From Bacteroidaceae bacterium (GTDB taxonomy: Bacteria > Bacteroidota > Bacteroidia > Bacteroidales > Bacteroidaceae), in the NCBI GenBank assembly GCA_017483605.1, contig JAFUWG010000043.1:1-41793 (forward strand): a stretch of 41,793 nt of DNA. The letters run 5' to 3'. A program made the position numbers and the translations under genes. Shown piece by piece: positions 3,762 through 31,339 of the stretch. How positions within the stretch are numbered: the stretch's first letter is position 1; each line of letters starts with the position of its first letter. A model generated the notes under the pieces. That model was given only the letters and a program-made list of their open reading frames with translations. It did not search any database and had not been told where the DNA came from.

Positions 3762-3878
3762 ATGGTATTCACTGTTACACCTATCATGTTTCTGTTTGCG
3801 CTCATAGCACTCATAGCCTCCATTCTTGTTGCTTGGACTTACGCCAAACCAGGCAAGAAGTGGCTGGCAAACCTATAG
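3762..3878 (+). CDS. 38-residue single-pass membrane peptide
   Basis: The ORF begins ATGGTATTC after the A-rich stretch ACGGGAAAATT and encodes a short N-terminus (MVFTVTP), one hydrophobic helix (about residues 8-25, IMFLFALIALIASILVAW) and a basic tail with AKPGKKW. The composition is typical of small bacterial inner-membrane peptides. I do not recognise the family. It could instead be a random hydrophobic frame; the lysine-rich tail and the good start context argue for coding. Its stop lies two bases before a 70-bp repeat copy (3881-3950). Confidence 0.45.
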   Translation: MVFTVTPIMFLFALIALIASILVAWTYAKPGKKWLANL

Positions 3879-3880
3879 AC

Positions 3881-3950
3881 TAAAAATATTTAATTAACCA
3901 TATTGTTTAACTAATCTTTAATTACTAACTCAATGAAAAAAGGTTGACTT
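3881..3950 (+). repeat. Upstream 70-bp direct repeat: leader plus start of a broken gene
   Basis: This copy matches 4721-4789 with few differences, from TAAAAATATTTAATTAACC through TTTAACTAATCTTTAATTAC and ACTC to the start codon and first codons ATGAAAAAAGGT. The reading frame stops at once (ATG AAA AAA GGT TGA, 3933-3947), where the second copy has TTA and opens the gene at 4772. It is therefore a duplicated leader with a dead start. Confidence 0.85.
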
Positions 3951-4155: not shown

Positions 4156-4335
4156 ATGACAAAGAAGTCTGAGGAAATGGTAACAGGACGTGTCGGACTC
4201 ATCAGTCCGAGGGTGTTGACGCTACATCGCAAGAGGCAGCGTGCCATCAGCATGGAAGAAAAAGAACGATTGGTCGCACAAGCCAAAGCCGCCTATGAAA
4301 TACGTATCAATCCCCCTGCACGAATACCTCGTTGA
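4156..4335 (+). CDS. 59-residue small basic protein upstream of the retropepsin gene
   Basis: The ORF starts MTKKSEEMVTGRVGLISPRV, continues with a basic helix (HRKRQRAISMEEKERLVAQA) and ends NPPARIPR. It overlaps the start of the retropepsin-like gene at 4295 by 41 bases in a different frame, which suggests translational coupling. The highly charged helix and position immediately before an effector-like gene resemble a small regulatory or antitoxin partner, but this is inference. No family is recognised. Confidence 0.5.
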   Translation: MTKKSEEMVTGRVGLISPRVLTLHRKRQRAISMEEKERLVAQAKAAYEIRINPPARIPR

Positions 4336-4708
4336 ACCATCTTTCAAGATGTGTACTGACTGCATCCTCTTCTCAGAAGACTACGAAAACTTGTTTGTGG
4401 CAGATGCGGCATTGATTGACACAGGAGCGACACGTACCGCTGTCGGATTGGATGTTATTCATGCACTTGGTGTAAAGTCAAAGTGGCAAGAGCGGATAGA
4501 GATTGGGAATGAGTTGTGTGATGTTGATGTGTACGAGGTAAAAATTATGTTGACGCCTGACTTGGTTTTTGACATTGATGTATATGGGTTACCAGGAGAA
4601 GGAACGGGAGCGGTGATTATAGGCATGGACATTATAGGCGTAGGAAAGTTGACGATAGAACCTGCTGGGAAACGACATCAAGGTGAACTTTTGTTCCCCA
4701 CACCATAA
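4295..4708 (+). CDS. Retropepsin-like (clan AA) aspartic protease
   Basis: The product has 137 residues from the ATG at 4295 (MKYVSIPLHE). The aspartic protease motif is IDTGATRTAV, with catalytic Asp42 in D-T-G-A. A later flap-like glycine segment and AVIIGMDIIG complete a single retropepsin lobe, which would act as a homodimer. There is no signal peptide, so it is probably cytoplasmic. An in-frame upstream ATG at 4241 would add 18 residues of poor quality read through the preceding small ORF, so 4295 is preferred. It is the last gene of a small module between direct repeats. The target protein is unknown. The residues IPLHEYL resemble the IPVHELI units at 11392-11476. Confidence 0.75.
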   Translation: MKYVSIPLHEYLVEPSFKMCTDCILFSEDYENLFVADAALIDTGATRTAVGLDVIHALGVKSKWQERIEIGNELCDVDVYEVKIMLTPDLVFDIDVYGLPGEGTGAVIIGMDIIGVGKLTIEPAGKRHQGELLFPTP

Positions 4709-4720
4709 CGGACAGAATAA

Positions 4721-4789
4721 TAAAAATTTAATTAATCATATTGTTTAACTAATCTTTAATTACTAACTCTTATGAAAAAAGGTTTACTT
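4721..4789 (+). repeat. Downstream 69-bp direct repeat: intact leader and start of the gene at 4772
   Basis: Partner of 3881-3950. It begins 12 bases after the retropepsin stop and covers the AT-rich leader with TTTAACTAATCTTTAATTAC, ACTCTT and the codons ATGAAAAAAGGTTTACTT. This copy leads into an open gene, so the pair brackets the module at about 3951-4720. Confidence 0.85.
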
Positions 4790-5302
4790 ATATTCGTTTT
4801 ATTTGTGACCTCTTTGCCAATGATGAGGGCACAAAATAATGTATATGTGTCTGTTAGTGGTAATAACTTACAATTCTGGAGTTATGGTGATCCCACGACA
4901 AGTGGTGAATATTTCCGTTTAGTTGACAACCAGCAGAATACATATTACGATTTTATGTATTTGGTGTATTCCAATATGTTTATCAATGCCGGTTTATATA
5001 ATCTAATTAGCCAAGTTTCTTTACAGCCTGGCAGATTATACAGAATTGAATACAATATTCCTCTCTATTTTAACATTCAAGTATGGGGGAATAATAATCC
5101 CGAGTCTGTAGCATTTTACTTTGAAAACAGTACAGATCCGACAGACCGCTATAATCTAACTCATATGCATTTCTACAAAACTCAATACAGCACATATTAC
5201 AATCTGTCATATCCATATAGTGCAGGATATAGCAACTGGTTCGATTCCAGCAATTTAAGTGATAATATAAGTAATTACAATGTGATGATGTGTATAGAAT
5301 GA
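4772..5302 (+). CDS. Small secreted protein of unknown function
   Basis: The product has 176 residues with a signal peptide (MKKGLLIFVLFVTSLPMMRA, then QNNVYVSVSGN). The mature part is rich in Asn, Tyr and Ser and looks like an all-beta domain. There is no C-terminal sorting tail and no known motif. Its leader (4721-4771) is shared with the next gene's leader at 5303-5350, so the two are likely controlled or expressed in similar ways. The coding sequence is more AT-rich than the genes after 10 kb, which suggests accessory DNA. Confidence 0.75.
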   Translation: MKKGLLIFVLFVTSLPMMRAQNNVYVSVSGNNLQFWSYGDPTTSGEYFRLVDNQQNTYYDFMYLVYSNMFINAGLYNLISQVSLQPGRLYRIEYNIPLYFNIQVWGNNNPESVAFYFENSTDPTDRYNLTHMHFYKTQYSTYYNLSYPYSAGYSNWFDSSNLSDNISNYNVMMCIE

Positions 5303-5350
5303 TAAAATAATTAACCCAAATGTTTAACTAATCTTTAATTACTAACTCTT
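5303..5350 (+). promoter_or_regulatory. Conserved leader of the 1213-residue protein gene
   Basis: TTAACCCAAATGTTTAACTA followed by ATCTTTAATTACTAACTCTT directly precedes the ATG at 5351. The block TTTAACTAATCTTTAATTAC with ACTC is identical to the leaders at 3905-3931 and 4742-4769, and a related AT-rich sequence precedes the gene starting at 1951 on the other strand. No -7 box is seen inside this interval, so transcription may come from further upstream. Confidence 0.6.
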
Positions 5351-8300
5351 ATGAAGAAGAATCTACTTTTTCTTGCTTCGCTTGTGATGAGTGTTAGTGT
5401 GTTTGCACAGTGGACTAAGCCTGTCCCGACTCAGTTTGTGGACATGGCAGACGACGGTGAGACGACACAATATCTCTACAATGCAAAAGCAGGTGGCTTC
5501 TTAGCAGGTCACAATGATTACAACACACGTGCATCAATTGCCGAGAAGGGTGACCAAGTACGTATGAAGGCGTTGGAAGGTGGCACATGGAATTTGGGGT
5601 TATACCCAGCCACTTATGTCAGCAAAAACGCTTGGCTTTATGTGTCATGTAACAGTTTTGATGCACAATGGGTAGATGCCCCCAATGCTGCTGAAAACGA
5701 ATCTTATCCAGGTACAGACCAATGGGTTGTAGAAAAACAAGCCAACGGAACTTACAAGTTTACAAACAAGGCGTGCGAGGCTAATCCTGGAACATGGGGT
5801 ATGGCTGAGATTTACAATGGAGAAAAAGGCAATACCCGCCTTTACATCAAGGACAGCGCTGCCAAGTACAGTTATGAAGACAATGGCGAAACGCTTGAAG
5901 CAGATGCTTTCTCTGGTGAGTTCTATGATGAATGGCAGTTTGTTACTGTTGAAGAATATGAGAGTTTGCTCGATAAACTTTCCCAGTACGAGGCTGCAAT
6001 GGCTCTGAAAGCCGCCATTGATGCTGCCAAGGCAGACCATCCAGACATTGACCTTTCAAAGCAGGAGGCTGTTTATAACAACACCGCTTCTACTGTAGAA
6101 GAACTCAATGCTGCAGAAAAGGAAATCGGTCCTGCTGTCGTGGATTTCCTCAAGGACAAGGCTTCTGTAGATAACCCTGTCAACTTTACAACTTCTATCA
6201 TCAACCCAACATTTGATGAGATTGGAAACTTCACAGGTTGGTTGGGTACTGCGTTCGGTGCTGGTGGTACAACGTCAACCAACGCTGAGCACTACGGCAA
6301 GACTTTTGACACTTATCAAGACATCGAAGGTCTGCCTGCAGGTATCTACATGGTTTCATGCAATGGTTATACTCGCTATCAGAATGCATCAGCAGACTAT
6401 GCTGCATGGGCTGCTGGTTCTCCTTCCGAAACGAAGATTTATCTCTCTTCTGAGACAAATGGCCAGTTCTTCACTCCTATCAAACACGTTTCTGCAGGTG
6501 GTTCTTACACTTCTATTCATAGCCAAGAGACGACAGTTACAACAAATGACGGACAGACACTCTATTGTCCGAATACAATGGCCGCTGCAACTGTTTACTT
6601 CCACGAGACTGATGACCCGAAGCGTTATTACAATGAAGCATTTGGTCCTCTCGCCGATAATGAAACACTCCGCATTGGTGTCATCAACCAGAAGGCAACA
6701 GGCTCAGACTGGTCAATCTTCGATGACTTCCAACTCTTCTACTATGGCGACAACCTTGATGCATATCAACTTTGGGGTGCTAAGGTAAAAGAGAATAACG
6801 TACTCAACTTCGACGGCGTTTATTATGGTGCTCCAGAGAAGGCTCTCTACGAGAAGACAATGGAGACTTTGACTTCTGCATCAACTAAGGAAGACATTGC
6901 TGCCGCAGTTCTCAATGTTGATGCTGTTATCGATTCTGTTGCTGTAAGTAGAGCAAACTACCTTGCTTATGTAAACGCTTTGAAGGATGCCATGGAGTGG
7001 CTGATTCAAGCAGACGAGCAGGGCATCTTCGGTGATGACGTAGATAAACTCTCCGACTACCTCCAGGCAGATTCTGACGATGGCTGGAACTTCCCTCACG
7101 GCGTTGCTAAGAGCATTCTTGACTATGAAGCAGACCAATTTGAAGGAAAACTTTCTGCTGCTGAAATTGCAGAGGAAACAACATACGTTCAGGATTTGAA
7201 GCAGACTGCTATCAAGAACGGTCTTTCTGAAGGTGGCGACTGCACAAATATGATTGTGAACGCTTCTTTCAAGGATGGCTTCACTGGTTGGACAAAGACT
7301 GCTGGTAACGTAGGTGGTCTTGCATCATTCCCCAATGTAGAGTGCTACGAAACCGTAGTAGAGATTTCTCAGGTAGTGAACGATGTTCCTGATGGTATCT
7401 ACTCTCTCTCTTGTAAGGCATTCGAGCGTCCAGGTGCAAACGGCAACTATGATGGCTCTGAAGAATCTATCGTGTACCTCTTCATGAACGACTTCCAGAC
7501 TCAAGTTCAGAACATCTGCCAAGATGCTCTTCCTGAGGATCAGGCTGAAGACCAAGTAAACTGCTACATCGGTGGTGGTGGTGGCGCCTGGCCATACGAC
7601 TACAATGTTTCTGGCTTCGGTTGGGTTCCTAACTCTATGGACGGCGCTTCATACGCATTCCAAGCAGGCCGTTACGAGCAGAAGGTTTACGGTCTTGTAG
7701 AAGGTGGTACCATGAAGATTGGTCTTACATCTAATGGACAGACTCTCGGTTCGCAGTGCTGGGTTCTTTGGGCTGACTTCAAGTTGACTTACGAAGGCAA
7801 GTCTGTAACGGCTTTGAAGAACGTTCTTCCTACTTTCATTGAGTCTCTCGAGAAGTTTGTGGATGAAAATTCGAGCAGCATGACAACTCCATCAACAGAA
7901 TCTGCTACTGCTATCATTACTGCTGCTAACCAAGCCATCGATGATGAAGATGCAGAGGCCATGTGGACTGCTTTGACTTCCATCAATGCCACTCTTCTTG
8001 ACGCAAAGGCAAATGTGGCTGCTGTAGCCGCTCTCAACACAGCCAAAGACGCTTTGGATGAGGCAATCAACCAATATGGGGAAACTGCTTCTCAGGATGC
8101 TATCAACAACTACTACTCAGTCGCAGAAAAGGCAGAAAACTTCTCTGAATTGACAACTGCTGAGGTTGAAGCACTGACAGAAGAAATCAATGCTGCTGCA
8201 TCTGCTCTGAAGATTCCAGCATACGAAAATGCTTCAGACGAGACTCCTGTTGACTTCACAGCCCTCATCGTGAACTCTACATTCGACACTATCGGTGATT

Positions 8301-8992
8301 TCACTGGTTGGTCTGACGGATTTGGTGCTGGTGGTACAACTTCTACCAACGCTGAGTGCTACAACAAGAATTTTGATGTACATCAGGACATCGTTGGTCT
8401 GCCAGCAGGTACTTATCAGGTGGCTTGCTACGGTTACTATCGTCAAGGTTCTGCTGAAAATGACTATAACAATACTCAGACAGAGGACGGCACTCCTGCT
8501 TACAACGCCATCATTTACGCTCTTGGTGAGAATGCCGACACATGCTCTGCTCCAATCATGAGCATCTGTGCTGGTATGGTTTCTGTTGGTCTTGGTGGTG
8601 ATACAAGCAATGTTGGTTCTGGCAGTGTTGTTCCTAACACAATGGCTGCTGCAACTTACTGGTTCGAGGCTGGCTACTATGCTCCAACAGAGAAGTTCAA
8701 TGCTGCTATCGTGAAGGTTGGCGAGGACGGCAAACTCCGCATCGGTGTGAAGAAGGATGTCACTATCTCTACAGACTGGGCTATCTTCGACAACTTCACT
8801 TTGACTTACTACGGCACAAACAGTGCTAAGGAGCCATCTGTTGGCACAGACATCGCTTCTATCGCTCCTGCTGTTTCTGCTGCTCCTGCTGGCATCTACA
8901 CGATCTCTGGTGCTAAGGTTGCTACTCTGCAGAAGGGTATCAACATCGTTCGCCTGAGCGACGGCACAGTGAAGAAGGTGCTCGTGAAGTAA
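5351..8992 (+). CDS. Large modular secreted/surface protein with type IX-like C-terminal tail
   Basis: The product has 1213 residues with a signal peptide (MKKNLLFLASLVMSVSVFAQ). Residues ~1-235 match the protein at 119-1951. Three beta-sandwich, carbohydrate-binding-like modules follow at about 275-468, 630-816 and 965-1155. Modules one and three are close copies: both contain FGAGGTTSTNAE, GLPAG and PNTMAAAT. Helical FIVAR-like segments separate them (for example about 893-955). The last ~45 residues (GIYTISGAKVATLQKGINIV ... KKVLVK) look like a type IX secretion sorting tail of the short Prevotella kind. It is probably exported by the type IX system, of which porZ lies 2.5 kb downstream. 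The ligand is unknown. Its last codons and terminator are duplicated at 10116. Confidence 0.85.
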   Translation: MKKNLLFLASLVMSVSVFAQWTKPVPTQFVDMADDGETTQYLYNAKAGGFLAGHNDYNTRASIAEKGDQVRMKALEGGTWNLGLYPATYVSKNAWLYVSCNSFDAQWVDAPNAAENESYPGTDQWVVEKQANGTYKFTNKACEANPGTWGMAEIYNGEKGNTRLYIKDSAAKYSYEDNGETLEADAFSGEFYDEWQFVTVEEYESLLDKLSQYEAAMALKAAIDAAKADHPDIDLSKQEAVYNNTASTVEELNAAEKEIGPAVVDFLKDKASVDNPVNFTTSIINPTFDEIGNFTGWLGTAFGAGGTTSTNAEHYGKTFDTYQDIEGLPAGIYMVSCNGYTRYQNASADYAAWAAGSPSETKIYLSSETNGQFFTPIKHVSAGGSYTSIHSQETTVTTNDGQTLYCPNTMAAATVYFHETDDPKRYYNEAFGPLADNETLRIGVINQKATGSDWSIFDDFQLFYYGDNLDAYQLWGAKVKENNVLNFDGVYYGAPEKALYEKTMETLTSASTKEDIAAAVLNVDAVIDSVAVSRANYLAYVNALKDAMEWLIQADEQGIFGDDVDKLSDYLQADSDDGWNFPHGVAKSILDYEADQFEGKLSAAEIAEETTYVQDLKQTAIKNGLSEGGDCTNMIVNASFKDGFTGWTKTAGNVGGLASFPNVECYETVVEISQVVNDVPDGIYSLSCKAFERPGANGNYDGSEESIVYLFMNDFQTQVQNICQDALPEDQAEDQVNCYIGGGGGAWPYDYNVSGFGWVPNSMDGASYAFQAGRYEQKVYGLVEGGTMKIGLTSNGQTLGSQCWVLWADFKLTYEGKSVTALKNVLPTFIESLEKFVDENSSSMTTPSTESATAIITAANQAIDDEDAEAMWTALTSINATLLDAKANVAAVAALNTAKDALDEAINQYGETASQDAINNYYSVAEKAENFSELTTAEVEALTEEINAAASALKIPAYENASDETPVDFTALIVNSTFDTIGDFTGWSDGFGAGGTTSTNAECYNKNFDVHQDIVGLPAGTYQVACYGYYRQGSAENDYNNTQTEDGTPAYNAIIYALGENADTCSAPIMSICAGMVSVGLGGDTSNVGSGSVVPNTMAAATYWFEAGYYAPTEKFNAAIVKVGEDGKLRIGVKKDVTISTDWAIFDNFTLTYYGTNSAKEPSVGTDIASIAPAVSAAPAGIYTISGAKVATLQKGINIVRLSDGTVKKVLVK

Positions 8993-9015
8993 ACATTCTG
9001 ACGATTCATCATACG

Positions 9016-9049
9016 AGTGGCGGCTCTGCAAAGGGGCGCCACTTTTTTT
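9016..9049 (+). terminator. Rho-independent terminator of the 1213-residue protein gene
   Basis: Stem AGTGGCG (9016-9022) pairs with CGCCACT (9037-9043), followed by a run of T to 9049. It starts 24 bases after the stop codon. Confidence 0.9.
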
Positions 9050-9059
9050 GCCTTTTTAT

Positions 9060-9090
9060 TTTGTGGGATTGGAGAAATGTTGTAACTTTG
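9060..9090 (+). promoter_or_regulatory. Promoter of the two-gene module
   Basis: TTTG at 9060-9063, 19 bases, TAACTTTG at 9083-9090. It lies at the 3' end of the first repeat copy and is a duplicate of the prmC promoter at 10206-10236. The start codon at 9119 lies 29 bases past the box. Confidence 0.85.
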
Positions 9091-9118
9091 CGGTTGGAAA
9101 TCAGAACTTTTGTTCATC

Positions 9119-9658
9119 ATGAAAGAACTTTTATTGGACTCTATCTTAGAAGGTATGCCTGGGATTACGGCTGTGGAAGGGGCAAATCTGTTAGAAAATT
9201 GCATTTATCTCCTTCATGAAAAAGGGCATGTTTCTCCGACAGACATGGAAGTATCTGGAATGGAGAATCTCATGCTACCTGTTGTTTGGAGAGACACCTA
9301 TGATGAGCAGATGAAACGGACGTATGCAGACCGCCAATCGGCGACGGAGCGTGCCGCGATATGTATAAGTGCCTTGTTGGCTACTACAATGACGGAATAT
9401 ACCATCGTGGAACGTTCGCGTAGAGGCACTGGTTTTGACTACTATTTGGGGAACAAGGAAGACAAGTTCTTTTTGCCAAAAGCGAGATTGGAAGTTTCTG
9501 GCATTGAAGAAGAAAAAAGCGGGAACACTTTATTACAGCGATATAGAATGAAGTTGAAGCAAGTGGAACGGTCTGACTATTTGAAACTACCTGTATATAT
9601 TGCAGTCGTGGAGTTTGACACACCCAAATCCATATTTGACAGAAAGGAGACAATATGA
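9119..9658 (+). CDS. Uncharacterised protein, first gene of a two-gene module
   Basis: The product has 179 residues with no signal peptide or membrane segment. The most motif-like part is ERSRRGTGFDYYLG (about 98-111) followed by ARLEVSGI (122-129). I recall similar motifs in uncharacterised proteins of Bacteroidota and cyanobacteria that sit next to a helical partner like the next gene, but cannot confirm this here. Asp107 and Glu125 are spaced as in PD-(D/E)XK nucleases, though the usual Lys is replaced (E-V-S), so a nuclease role is only a guess. The ATG at 9119 is preferred to an upstream in-frame TTG at 9110. The stop overlaps the next start (ATGA), so the two are co-translated. Both neighbours across the repeats are unrelated genes. 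Confidence 0.8.
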   Translation: MKELLLDSILEGMPGITAVEGANLLENCIYLLHEKGHVSPTDMEVSGMENLMLPVVWRDTYDEQMKRTYADRQSATERAAICISALLATTMTEYTIVERSRRGTGFDYYLGNKEDKFFLPKARLEVSGIEEEKSGNTLLQRYRMKLKQVERSDYLKLPVYIAVVEFDTPKSIFDRKETI

Positions 9659-10119
9659 GTGAACTTCTTGACATGCATCACGAGGCGATGGAATTAGCCT
9701 ATTGTGGTGACAAAGCAGAAAAAGAGGGTGACGTTGAAATGGCAAAGAACTATTTCGACAAGGCCTTCGAGAAAGAACGAGAGGCTGCCTTCTTGGCAGA
9801 ATCGTTGGGAAACCCCGAGCCAGGATTGTCTATTCTGTTTCGCAGTGCGGCAAGTTTGGGGATACAATGCGGACGATTGCGTGATACGGAACGCCTTATA
9901 GCCCATATTTTAAGTGGCGACCCTGATGATTCTGTGGCAAGTGACATGCGTGAATTGTTACAGCAAATCTATTCTCTTCGTGAGGTTGATGACAAGTCTG
10001 AGGAAGCATTCCGTTTGCTCGTTCCCAAAGAGGAAACATCACTCTTCAAGACGCTTGTTGGCAAAATGGGGTGGCCTTTCTCATCAATTTCCAAAATTGG
10101 CCGTGTAGCGGTATTGTGA
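9655..10119 (+). CDS. Uncharacterised helical (TPR-like) protein, second gene of the module
   Basis: The product has 154 residues, essentially all helical. The pattern AYCGDKAEKEGDVEMAKNYF followed by AFEKEREAA resembles a tetratricopeptide-type helix pair. The block EPGLSILFRSAASLG (55-69), then CGRLRDTERLIAHILSGDP, is the part that looks conserved from memory of similar paired proteins. It is read with the previous gene through a four-base ATGA overlap and probably forms a complex with it. The TGA stop (10117-10119) lies within the second repeat copy, one base after the repeat begins, so the native C-terminus may have been trimmed at the junction. The function is unknown. Confidence 0.8.
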   Translation: MSELLDMHHEAMELAYCGDKAEKEGDVEMAKNYFDKAFEKEREAAFLAESLGNPEPGLSILFRSAASLGIQCGRLRDTERLIAHILSGDPDDSVASDMRELLQQIYSLREVDDKSEEAFRLLVPKEETSLFKTLVGKMGWPFSSISKIGRVAVL

Positions 10120-10162
10120 AGAAGGTGCTCGTGAAGTAAACATTCTGACGATTCATCATACG

Positions 10163-10195
10163 AGTGGCGGCTCTGCAAAGGGTCGCCACTTTTTT
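10163..10195 (+). terminator. Terminator of the two-gene module (duplicated copy)
   Basis: AGTGGCG (10163-10169) pairs with CGCCACT (10184-10190), followed by T to 10195. It is the duplicate of the hairpin at 9016, with one loop change and a T-run one base shorter. Confidence 0.9.
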
Positions 10196-10205
10196 GTCTT
10201 TTTAT

Positions 10206-10236
10206 TTTGTGGGATTGGAGAAATGTTGTACTTTTG
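10206..10236 (+). promoter_or_regulatory. Promoter of prmC
   Basis: TTTG at 10206-10209, a 19-base spacer and TACTTTTG at 10229-10236. With the usual 21-29 base distance from box to start codon in this window, it places the prmC start at 10262 rather than at the in-frame ATG codons at 10223 (inside the promoter) or 10241 (at the likely transcript start). Confidence 0.85.
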
Positions 10237-10261
10237 TGGTATGAATGGATTGTATGGAAAT

Positions 10262-11332
10262 ATGAAGAGGGTGCTGCGGGAGGGCGGCATGGAGGATGGC
10301 GAGGCACGGGCTGTTGTGCTTCTGCTGTTGGAGAAGGTGTGTGGGTGGAGTGCCGCGGAGGCGTTGATGGCTGAGGATGATGGAAGCGAAGAGGGGAAGA
10401 GGGTGATGGAGATGGTGAGGAGGGTGGCGAAGGGAGAGCCTGTGCAGTATGTGTTGGGAGAGGCGGAGTTTTGCGGGTTGAGGTTGAAGGTGGAGAAGGG
10501 GGTGTTGATTCCGCGGGTGGAGACGGAGGAGTTGGTGGAATGGGTGGTGGAGGAGATGGGGTTGCGACAGCGTCGCAACATAGAGAACCTGATGGGGGAA
10601 GAGAGGGAGAAGGGAAAAGAAGAAGAGGGGGAAGAAGAAGAGGGAGAAGAGAGAGAAGAGAGAGAGGGAGGAGGGCTGCAACAGTGTTGCAGCATGGAGG
10701 ACAAGAGGGAAGGAGAGGAAGAGGACAGAAGGAGAGAGGGGATGAGGGTGTTGGATGTGGGGACGGGAAGTGGGTGTATTGCGGTGGCTTTGGCGAAGAA
10801 GTTGGAGGGAGTGAAGGTGGAGGCTTGGGATGTGAGCGAGGAGGCGTTGAGGGTGGCGAGAGAGAACGGGAAGAGATGTGGGGTGAAGGTGGAGTTTAGG
10901 AGGGTGGATGTGCTGAACCTTGAGCCTAACTCAAAAACTCAAGAACTCAAAAACTTAAAAACTCAAAAAACCCAAAACTTAAAAACTCAAAAACTTAAAA
11001 ACCCAAAAACTCAAAAACCCAACCATTACGATGCGATAGTGAGCAATCCGCCGTACATCTGCGAGGTGGAGCGAGGGGAGATGGAGGTGAATGTGGTAGA
11101 GCATGAACCTTGGGGGGCGTTGTTTGTGCCGGATGATGACCCGCTGGTGTTCTATCGGAAGATTGCGGAGATGGGACGAGGGATGCTGAAGGAGAGGGGG
11201 ATGCTGTTCTTCGAGATTAACAGGCGGTTTGGCAGGGAGGTGGTGCAGTTGCTGGAAGGGCTGGGCTATCGGGAAGTGGAGTTGAGACAGGACATGTTTG
11301 GCAACGACCGCATGGTGAAGGCAATAAAATGA
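10262..11332 (+). CDS. prmC: PrmC, release factor glutamine methyltransferase, with two low-complexity insertions
   Basis: PrmC (HemK) methylates the GGQ glutamine of peptide-chain release factors using S-adenosylmethionine. GEPVQYVLGEAEFCG and VLIPRVETEELVEW are the N-terminal signature, DVGTGSGCIA (165-174) is the SAM loop and SNPPYI (261-266) holds the catalytic NPPY. The product has 356 residues against a usual ~280. The excess is two insertions: residues ~101-160, mostly Glu/Arg/Gly, and ~221-254, a Lys/Thr/Gln/Asn/Leu repeat just before NPPY. Both keep the frame, so the enzyme may still fold with exposed loops, but activity is not certain. The start is chosen by promoter spacing. The stop overlaps a small downstream ORF (ATGA at 11329). 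Confidence 0.9.
   Translation: MKRVLREGGMEDGEARAVVLLLLEKVCGWSAAEALMAEDDGSEEGKRVMEMVRRVAKGEPVQYVLGEAEFCGLRLKVEKGVLIPRVETEELVEWVVEEMGLRQRRNIENLMGEEREKGKEEEGEEEEGEEREEREGGGLQQCCSMEDKREGEEEDRRREGMRVLDVGTGSGCIAVALAKKLEGVKVEAWDVSEEALRVARENGKRCGVKVEFRRVDVLNLEPNSKTQELKNLKTQKTQNLKTQKLKNPKTQKPNHYDAIVSNPPYICEVERGEMEVNVVEHEPWGALFVPDDDPLVFYRKIAEMGRGMLKERGMLFFEINRRFGREVVQLLEGLGYREVELRQDMFGNDRMVKAIK
10561..10693 (+). repeat. Homopurine tract flanked by two related palindromes, inside prmC
   Basis: Bases 10594-10675 are 82 consecutive purines. The tract is flanked by GTTGCGACAGCGTCGCAAC (10561-10579) and GCTGCAACAGTGTTGCAGC (10675-10693), each a perfect 8-bp stem with a three-base loop. The palindromes are clearly related to each other, and both are followed by CAT(A/G)GAG or similar. 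Together with the purine-rich stretch to about 10740 this encodes the first extra segment of PrmC. Confidence 0.9.
10928..11022 (+). repeat. A-rich ~10-bp microrepeat (ACTCAAAAAC type) inside prmC
   Basis: The units ACTCAAAAAC, ACTTAAAAAC and ACCCAAAAAC recur about nine times with small variations. They encode KTQELKNLKTQ-like repeats between the last strand before NPPY and the NPPY motif itself. Many unit differences are T/C changes at one position. Confidence 0.85.
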
Positions 11333-31258: not shown

Positions 31259-31339
31259 CCTCTAAAGTGGTCTGAGTCACACCGCCTCGGCGGTCTGAGT
31301 CACACCACTTGGGCGGTCTGAGTCAGACCACTTTTGAGG
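31259..31339. repeat. Three 23-bp palindromic units forming a long hairpin
   Basis: GGTCTGAGTCA starts at 31269, 31292 and 31315, exactly 23 bases apart. The outer arms CCTCTAAAGTGGTCTGAGTCA (31259-31279, two mismatches) and TGAGTCAGACCACTTTTGAGG (31319-31339) are inverted copies; the 3' arm is followed by TCTTTTCTG. It lies between the radical SAM gene and the sirtuin gene and may act as a terminator. Confidence 0.75.

Follow-up and report, generated by a model that had tools for sequence, protein, structure and literature searches.

The 41,793-nucleotide contig JAFUWG010000043.1 of the Bacteroidaceae bacterium assembly GCA_017483605.1 (forward strand, positions 1 to 41,793; hereafter the window) carries two small overlapping open reading frames (ORFs), ORF1 and ORF2, between the gene for a 1213-residue protein, here called orfA, and prmC. 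ORF1 and ORF2 probably form a self-contained module that entered the orfA–prmC spacer by an insertion with long target duplication and that spreads in the manner of toxin–antitoxin (TA) and restriction–modification (R-M) units. The observations that carry this reading are the module itself, the duplicated host sequence around it, single-spacer sites in relatives, movement of the pair as a bare unit and its recurrence beside other genes.

As shown in Table 1, the pair lies between two direct repeats, which a first-pass annotation of this DNA had placed at about 8969–9090 and 10116–10236, correctly to within a few bases. The two copies share 95% identity (E 1.9e-51), and in their cores 111 of the 113 aligned bases are identical, with 2 substitutions and one 1-bp gap; the left edge of the core is sharp and falls at GTGAAG. 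That each copy holds the last codons of orfA, a terminator and a promoter, as the same annotation stated, is confirmed by sequence, folding and motif match: for the hairpin of either copy, 0 of 200 shuffles fold equally well, and the motif TTTG-N19-TAnnTTTG, which we take to be a Bacteroidales-type promoter, is found once per copy, at 9060 and 10206. Two overlapping genes had likewise been read between the repeats at 9119–10119; they overlap by 4 bp (ATGA), and the ORF2 stop codon TGA sits on the first bases of repeat copy 2. In the 3.06-Mb host genome these are the only full copies of the repeat, the third match being 36 bp long, and a dispersed repeat was therefore ruled out as the origin of the duplicated stretch. 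The proposal that the insertion copied host sequence and left both neighbours intact is supported.

Table 1. Features of the ORF1–ORF2 locus in the window
Feature	Position	Strand	Remarks
orfA, upstream neighbour, 1213-aa gene	5351..8992	+	3' end intact, duplicated
Direct repeat copy 1	8969..9094, core 8969–9082	+	last 7 codons and stop of orfA, terminator, promoter
Terminator hairpin, copy 1	9015..9044	+	-20.8 kcal/mol
Promoter motif TTTG-N19-TAACTTTG, copy 1, now ahead of ORF1	9060..9090	+	motif match
ORF1, 179 aa, predicted PD-(D/E)XK-like nuclease	9119..9658	+	D107, E125-x-S127, R141, K145 and Q148 conserved
ORF2, 154 aa	9655..10119	+	helical TPR-like N-terminal domain, antitoxin-like C-terminal tail
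Direct repeat copy 2	10116..10240, core 10116–10228	+	sequence alignment
Terminator hairpin, copy 2	10162..10191	+	-22.5 kcal/mol
Promoter motif TTTG-N19-TACTTTTG, copy 2, prmC promoter	10206..10236	+	motif match
prmC, downstream neighbour	10241..11332	+	NCBIfam TIGR03534, 4e-66; start placed at the ATG directly 3' of the promoter (ORF list: 10223)

The empty form of this site was looked for among relatives by searching for prmC in 45 genomes of the same genus (the host's own included), and 29 loci of other species were recovered, most of them with flanks of 1.5 kb. Among these, 12 have an orfA-type gene whose end is separated from prmC by 89–102 bp with a single terminator–promoter spacer, both signals being recognised by eye; two further loci have an orfA–prmC gap of 158–159 bp, and the remainder show other neighbours, longer gaps or contig ends. 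These 12 loci are the empty state of the insertion site, by architecture and not by nucleotide identity. ORF1 and ORF2 occur in none of the 29 prmC loci, and the outcomes that the first-pass annotation named as refuting its reading did not emerge: the pair is not ancestral in the genus, ORF1 being present in 0 of 36 other genomes of the genus. ORF1 is similarly rare at higher rank, with 3 of 399 genomes of the family and 5 of 395 of the phylum (own genome included in both), one of the latter five (L038) being doubtful.

Beyond this lineage, a scan of the genomes of 84,980 species returned 105 matches, of which 80 were kept, and the pair proved sparse yet widespread, with many of the matches in cyanobacteria and others in Chloroflexi, Planctomycetes, Bacteroidota and further groups. 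The ORF2 domain adjoins ORF1 in 89 of 90 sequences (window included), usually overlapping it or lying no more than 15 bp away; these 90 had been picked for carrying ORF1, the exception (L070) is a contig that ends inside ORF1, and L042 (ORF2 only) and L038 (weak match, internal stop) were left out of the count. ORF2 exists in two forms among 79 counted, a short one of 102–149 aa from the start of the domain and a long one of 345–394 aa. As the protein measures about 370 aa in many relatives, truncation of the window ORF2 by the insertion was at first suspected, but it was ruled out, since short forms are common and the closest relative, L126, has a matching end (...IGKVALL, resembling ...IGRVAVL in the window). 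In a Hymenobacter plasmid (L040, 4528–5433), the helical domain of ORF2 is joined in one protein to a region with a sugar transferase annotation, and a gene that by eye looks resolvase-like follows downstream.

ORF1 is present in two or three copies in 4 of 8 genomes tested, and the pair can move between loci as a bare unit. The comparison covered 24 locus pairs with an identity of 90% or more and 150 bp or more of sequence on either side: in 11 the shared stretch outside the ORFs is 100 bp or less, in 7 only the left flank is common to both loci, and in 6 both flanks are. At 80% identity, 116 of 140 locus pairs are bare. Both ORFs are under purifying selection, with ratios of nonsynonymous to synonymous substitution rates of 0.05–0.34 in 8 of 8 locus pairs tested. 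A phage origin was also considered and set aside: ORF1, the only query used, was unmatched in 50,697 phage records. The pair is found on three contigs of viral collections, one of which (L044) is identical to a stretch of a Herpetosiphon chromosome (L101).

The same module was also sought beside other genes with flanking repeats in other genomes, and was found there. Direct repeats of 55–330 bp with E <1e-15 span the pair at 15, counting the window, of the 84 loci whose flanks could be used. The cut-off was set after inspection of the list, two of the 15 (L069 and L071) represent one site, and one locus lacking ORF2 (L070) and five with short flanks (L083, L091, L094, L109 and L037) had been dropped beforehand. 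In L065, L074, L113 and L073, the upstream gene keeps an intact 3' end that makes up one repeat copy, the second being a loose fragment, and in the last three the repeat stops 1–2 bp past the host stop codon; in L069/L071, a divergent gene has its 5' end repeated. The closest pair found (53% for ORF1 and 46% for ORF2), L126, which is the second pair in the genome of a Prevotella-type relative (that of L047), is flanked by 92-bp, 89% repeats with a terminator-like stretch and a leader. Inside the same repeats, a nucleotidyltransferase gene (PF01909, 4372–4770) directly precedes ORF1–ORF2, and it matches the MntA model below the NCBIfam cut-off. Among six further loci, L128 has a 54-bp, 83% repeat and L204 weak repeats of 69–72%.

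Different pairs at one host site are seen at a gene of Nostoc, here called gene X. A query of 613 bp from its 3' part matched all 53 Nostoc genomes searched, G477 and G514 by fragments only, and 25 short matches to the end of gene X were found in 19 of the 53 genomes; 10 of these start exactly at query position 429 and 17 at 426–435. Repeat length varies between insertions (55–330 bp), but the start of the copy at gene X is nearly fixed. Of 20 gene-X loci fetched, 12 of them chosen for holding short matches, 8 have X separated from a loose copy of the gene end by a cassette or the remnant of one. L168 reads X, ORF1/ORF2, copy, VapBC-type pair, copy; L154 has the same array with extra ORFs ahead of the first copy; L151 reads X, Phd/PIN, copy, HicAB, short copy. 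In L152 and L153, HicA or HicAB lies between X and the copy; L156 has HicAB followed by a short copy and a copy; L161 and L160 hold a Phd/PIN remnant and a PIN remnant with transposase-like ORFs, respectively, before the copy. In addition, X in L159 is accompanied by a copy but by no cassette, L155, L157 and L158 have a lone copy of the gene-X end, and L170 has neither cassette nor loose copy. The labels HicA, HicB, Phd and PIN are Pfam-based for L151 and L065, and in L065 the loose gene-end copy begins at a GCGATCGC site. The end of gene X in Nostoc is a hotspot for HicAB, VapBC-type, Phd–PIN and ORF1/ORF2 pairs.

Similarly, the orfA–prmC spacer has received another pair in the genus of the host. 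In two other species (L199 and L200), a gene for a 59-aa protein and an aspartyl-protease gene stand between an orfA-type gene and prmC, and repeats flank the pair on either side (29 bp, 96.6%, with a terminator; 64 bp, 80%); the assignment rests on matches to the 59-aa protein and a listed ORF. A homologous pair is present in the window itself at 4156–4708, where the 59-aa gene (4156–4335) overlaps an aspartyl-protease-like gene (4295–4708) and both lie between leader repeats of 76 bp and 91% identity, a layout that suggests a second such insertion. The leader, of 63–76 bp, has three copies in the window, at 3877–3950, 4714–4789 and 5296–5358, the first being a loose leader with a start codon. 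A HigBA-type pair between 86-bp repeats elsewhere in the host genome (L189, 9582–10842), found among 364,124 bases sampled from its other contigs, roughly 12% of the total, was set aside because its repeats, judged by eye, hold a unit also present at 31269–31333 of the window. This 23-bp unit, GGTCTGAGTCACACCACTTCGGC, forms a tandem array in the window and recurs in the L189 repeats.

Neither ORF1 nor ORF2 has a convincing match in Pfam, NCBIfam, PHROGs or PADLOC, nor did a known TA family match, and no methyltransferase or R-M family matched either of them in Pfam, NCBIfam and related profile searches. A known defence system was likewise rejected, as PADLOC gave no match for the window pair and, for the pairs of four relatives, one weak match (E 0.032). 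Structure modelling of ORF1 gave a predicted local distance difference test score (pLDDT) of 96.7 and a predicted template-modelling score of 0.92, and the leading Foldseek entries were tRNA-splicing endonucleases, SPARDA subunits and the Cas4-like ACE1 (best E 7.4e-3), which we take to be PD-(D/E)XK-type folds. Residues D107, E125 and S127 are present in 57 of 57 sequences, and R141, K145 and Q148 in 56 of 57; ORF1 is tentatively predicted to be a PD-(D/E)XK-like nuclease. The N-terminus of ORF2 has weak TPR matches that fit a helical domain, and a long relative (L043) was modelled as helices with a pLDDT of 89.8. The ORF2 tail resembles small antitoxin-like proteins. A search of 45 genomes for it gave matches at E <0.006 in four besides the host's own, and at E 1 in 21, with the host counted. 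One of the matches, L194, is immediately followed by a fragment of a YafQ toxin (PF15738, 3e-18), and this adjacency gives a weak hint that ORF2 may be a controlling partner. A DUF6575 protein (L192, 991–1626) ends in an MGW...IGKVAxL tail, as do the ORF2 proteins of L126 and the window. Sequence likeness of this kind suggests that the C-terminal tail may be common to unrelated small modules.

In the proposed insertion, foreign DNA would be joined to host DNA at two positions some 114 bp from each other, and therefore the end of orfA, the terminator and the promoter would come to stand on both sides of it. The joining step may be illegitimate end-joining to sister strands or template switching between them, selection would keep those insertions that spare both neighbours, and the repeats could later serve for recombinational excision and cassette exchange. 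If the module has an addiction or defence role, ORF1 would be the toxic nuclease and ORF2 its controller. It is tentatively conceivable that this belongs to a broader recombinase-free cassette system, in which small addictive pairs (TA or nuclease/partner) are inserted beside host genes with long target duplication and the gene end so duplicated becomes a homology-based dock for stacking, swapping and excision of different pairs at one host gene; the idea of docking units stems from the arrays at gene X in Nostoc and from the orfA–prmC spacer having been used more than once.

Several results weigh against insertion of a self-contained module by target duplication. The empty state is known from other species of the genus and none from the same species, and the assembly behind both junctions is a draft of 56 contigs with 81.5% completeness. 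In 69 of the 84 loci, no repeat passed the cut-off, no repeat spanning the pair was found at L127, L129, L130 or L203, the repeat of L085 falls in neighbouring copies of the module itself, and 7 of the 20 Nostoc loci (L162–L167 and L169) carry a cassette or remnant after X and no loose copy. A cyanobacterial plasmid (L042, 3222–4279) carries a lone ORF2 and no ORF1, with an annotated tyrosine recombinase and a Tn3 transposase next to it. For the nuclease prediction, Foldseek gave no match below E 1e-3 and query template-modelling scores below 0.4 in the listed matches, and the canonical Lys of the E-x-K motif is Ser (S127) in ORF1, with K145 in the next helix. In addition, tight repeats surround 7 of 79 ORF1–ORF2 loci kept for sufficient flank, compared with 8 of 126 other adjacent same-strand ORF pairs in the same loci (p = 0.58), so ORF1–ORF2 is not exceptional among neighbouring pairs and the notion that it is specially repeat-prone is unsupported in this comparison. 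Compared with single genes (11 of 526), the difference is clear (p = 0.005), and an earlier, looser control gave repeats at 13 of 72 loci versus 44 of 716 sliding windows. Three of the eight repeat-flanked control pairs are of TA type, namely PIN pairs in L065 and L067 and a DUF433–DUF5615 pair in L066, presumably TA-linked; the others are DUF4365 with a partner (L090 and L102), an aspartyl-protease pair (L082), ORF1–ORF2 itself (L085) and an eighth that is unassignable, with the labels of L067, L082 and L090 given by likeness or eye. Repeat flanking as a trait of small TA-like pairs is accordingly a hint and not a result.

Other origins of the layout need to be weighed against duplicating insertion. 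The first-pass annotation proposed integration of a circle, and while its duplicating insertion stands, its single-crossover route does not gain from the window, which one-step long target duplication fits equally well. In the circle route, recombination between repeats frees the module with a host-end unit, and a RecA single crossover re-enters the same host sequence to give direct repeats and arrays. The copies of the gene end in Nostoc have the same or nearly the same start base regardless of the cassette, as this route predicts, and the arrays L168, L154 and L151, as well as X with a cassette-free copy in L159, also favour it. However, a single ancestral duplication followed by cassette swapping would yield the fixed start as well, the Nostoc loci with a cassette and no copy do not fit, within the genus the repeats at the prmC spacer vary in length from species to species, and neither an excised circle nor a donor of the same species was observed. 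Since the module must already be joined to host sequence, the circle also leaves the first insertion unexplained, and we consider this route possible but not likely. Homology-facilitated illegitimate recombination after DNA uptake, in which a donor fragment recombines within orfA and its other end joins upstream of the matching point, leaving donor and recipient ends, is improbable. The two substitutions and one gap between the core copies are such as two strains might show, and the repeats ending just past the host stop codon in L074, L113 and L073 are in keeping with it, but later mutation after a single duplication gives the same differences, and no donor strain was found.

Integrases that target gene ends leave a duplication of the gene end, and the module could on these grounds be the remnant of a site-specific element of integrase or integron type that restored the host gene end and then lost its recombinase. 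The tyrosine recombinase beside the lone ORF2 of L042 and the resolvase-like gene of L040 point in this direction. No recombinase lies between or adjoining the repeats in the window, however, where only weak inverted repeats surround the module; the unit common to loci is often the two ORFs alone, and the wide range of repeat lengths is a further objection, which makes such a remnant very improbable. An assembly artefact from mixed strains is scarcely credible: the genome is indeed a fragmented draft, but the two copies differ in sequence, and a similar layout occurs in L073, an 11-Mb contig of a nearly complete genome.

Among the neighbouring genes of the window, the orfA protein has no Pfam match at E 1, and prmC contains low-complexity inserts at 10610–11030, made up of a Glu-rich stretch and an array of about 12 copies of the AACTCAAA octamer, through which the frame stays open.

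Insertion with long target duplication has reportedly been described for R-M systems by Nobusato et al. in 2000 and Furuta et al. in 2010. An unnamed family of predicted nuclease/partner pairs, found in many phyla, now shows the layout of R-M and TA units, and two host sites, the gene-X end in Nostoc and the orfA–prmC spacer, have received different pairs. ORF1–ORF2 is a candidate for a new addiction or defence system. Three papers describe long, variable target duplications for R-M units (PMC3874152, PMC3031569, PMC1643837). ORF1–ORF2 resembles R-M insertions in lying between long, variable direct repeats of target DNA, of the order of 100 bp, and in movement that can be unlinked to a known mobile element; on our reading of these sources, how R-M and TA units move with no mobility gene of their own has stayed unexplained since long target duplications were noticed in 2000. 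Unlike R-M units, it has no methyltransferase or R-M family match and consists of a nuclease-like gene and a TPR-like partner in many phyla.

In the accessible portion of a report on Microcystis (PMC7935541), a ParDE-type TA module of small, partly overlapping genes lies behind the MaOC1 orthocaspase gene, fenced by identical 152-bp direct repeats, the first of which starts 14 bp past the stop codon of the gene. The likeness to ORF1–ORF2 lies in an overlapping small gene pair between direct repeats, and the pair of L069/L071 stands beside a caspase-like gene (by eye) whose start is duplicated; the protein families differ, and that portion of the report gives no insertion mechanism for the Microcystis pair. 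ORF1–ORF2 is also like type II TA systems in size, overlap, sparse distribution and a Nostoc slot common with HicAB, VapBC-type and Phd–PIN pairs, while differing in its lack of a match to any known TA family. ORF1 shares with the PD-(D/E)XK superfamily a predicted fold and conserved Asp/Glu residues, but E-x-S replaces E-x-K and the structural scores are weak. The literature covered, which includes parts of PMC2654758 and PMC2701414 and leaves most subscription journals outside, gave no account of the ORF1–ORF2 protein pair or of gene-end TA cassette arrays. It is concluded that the window holds a new family that uses a known but unexplained mode of insertion.

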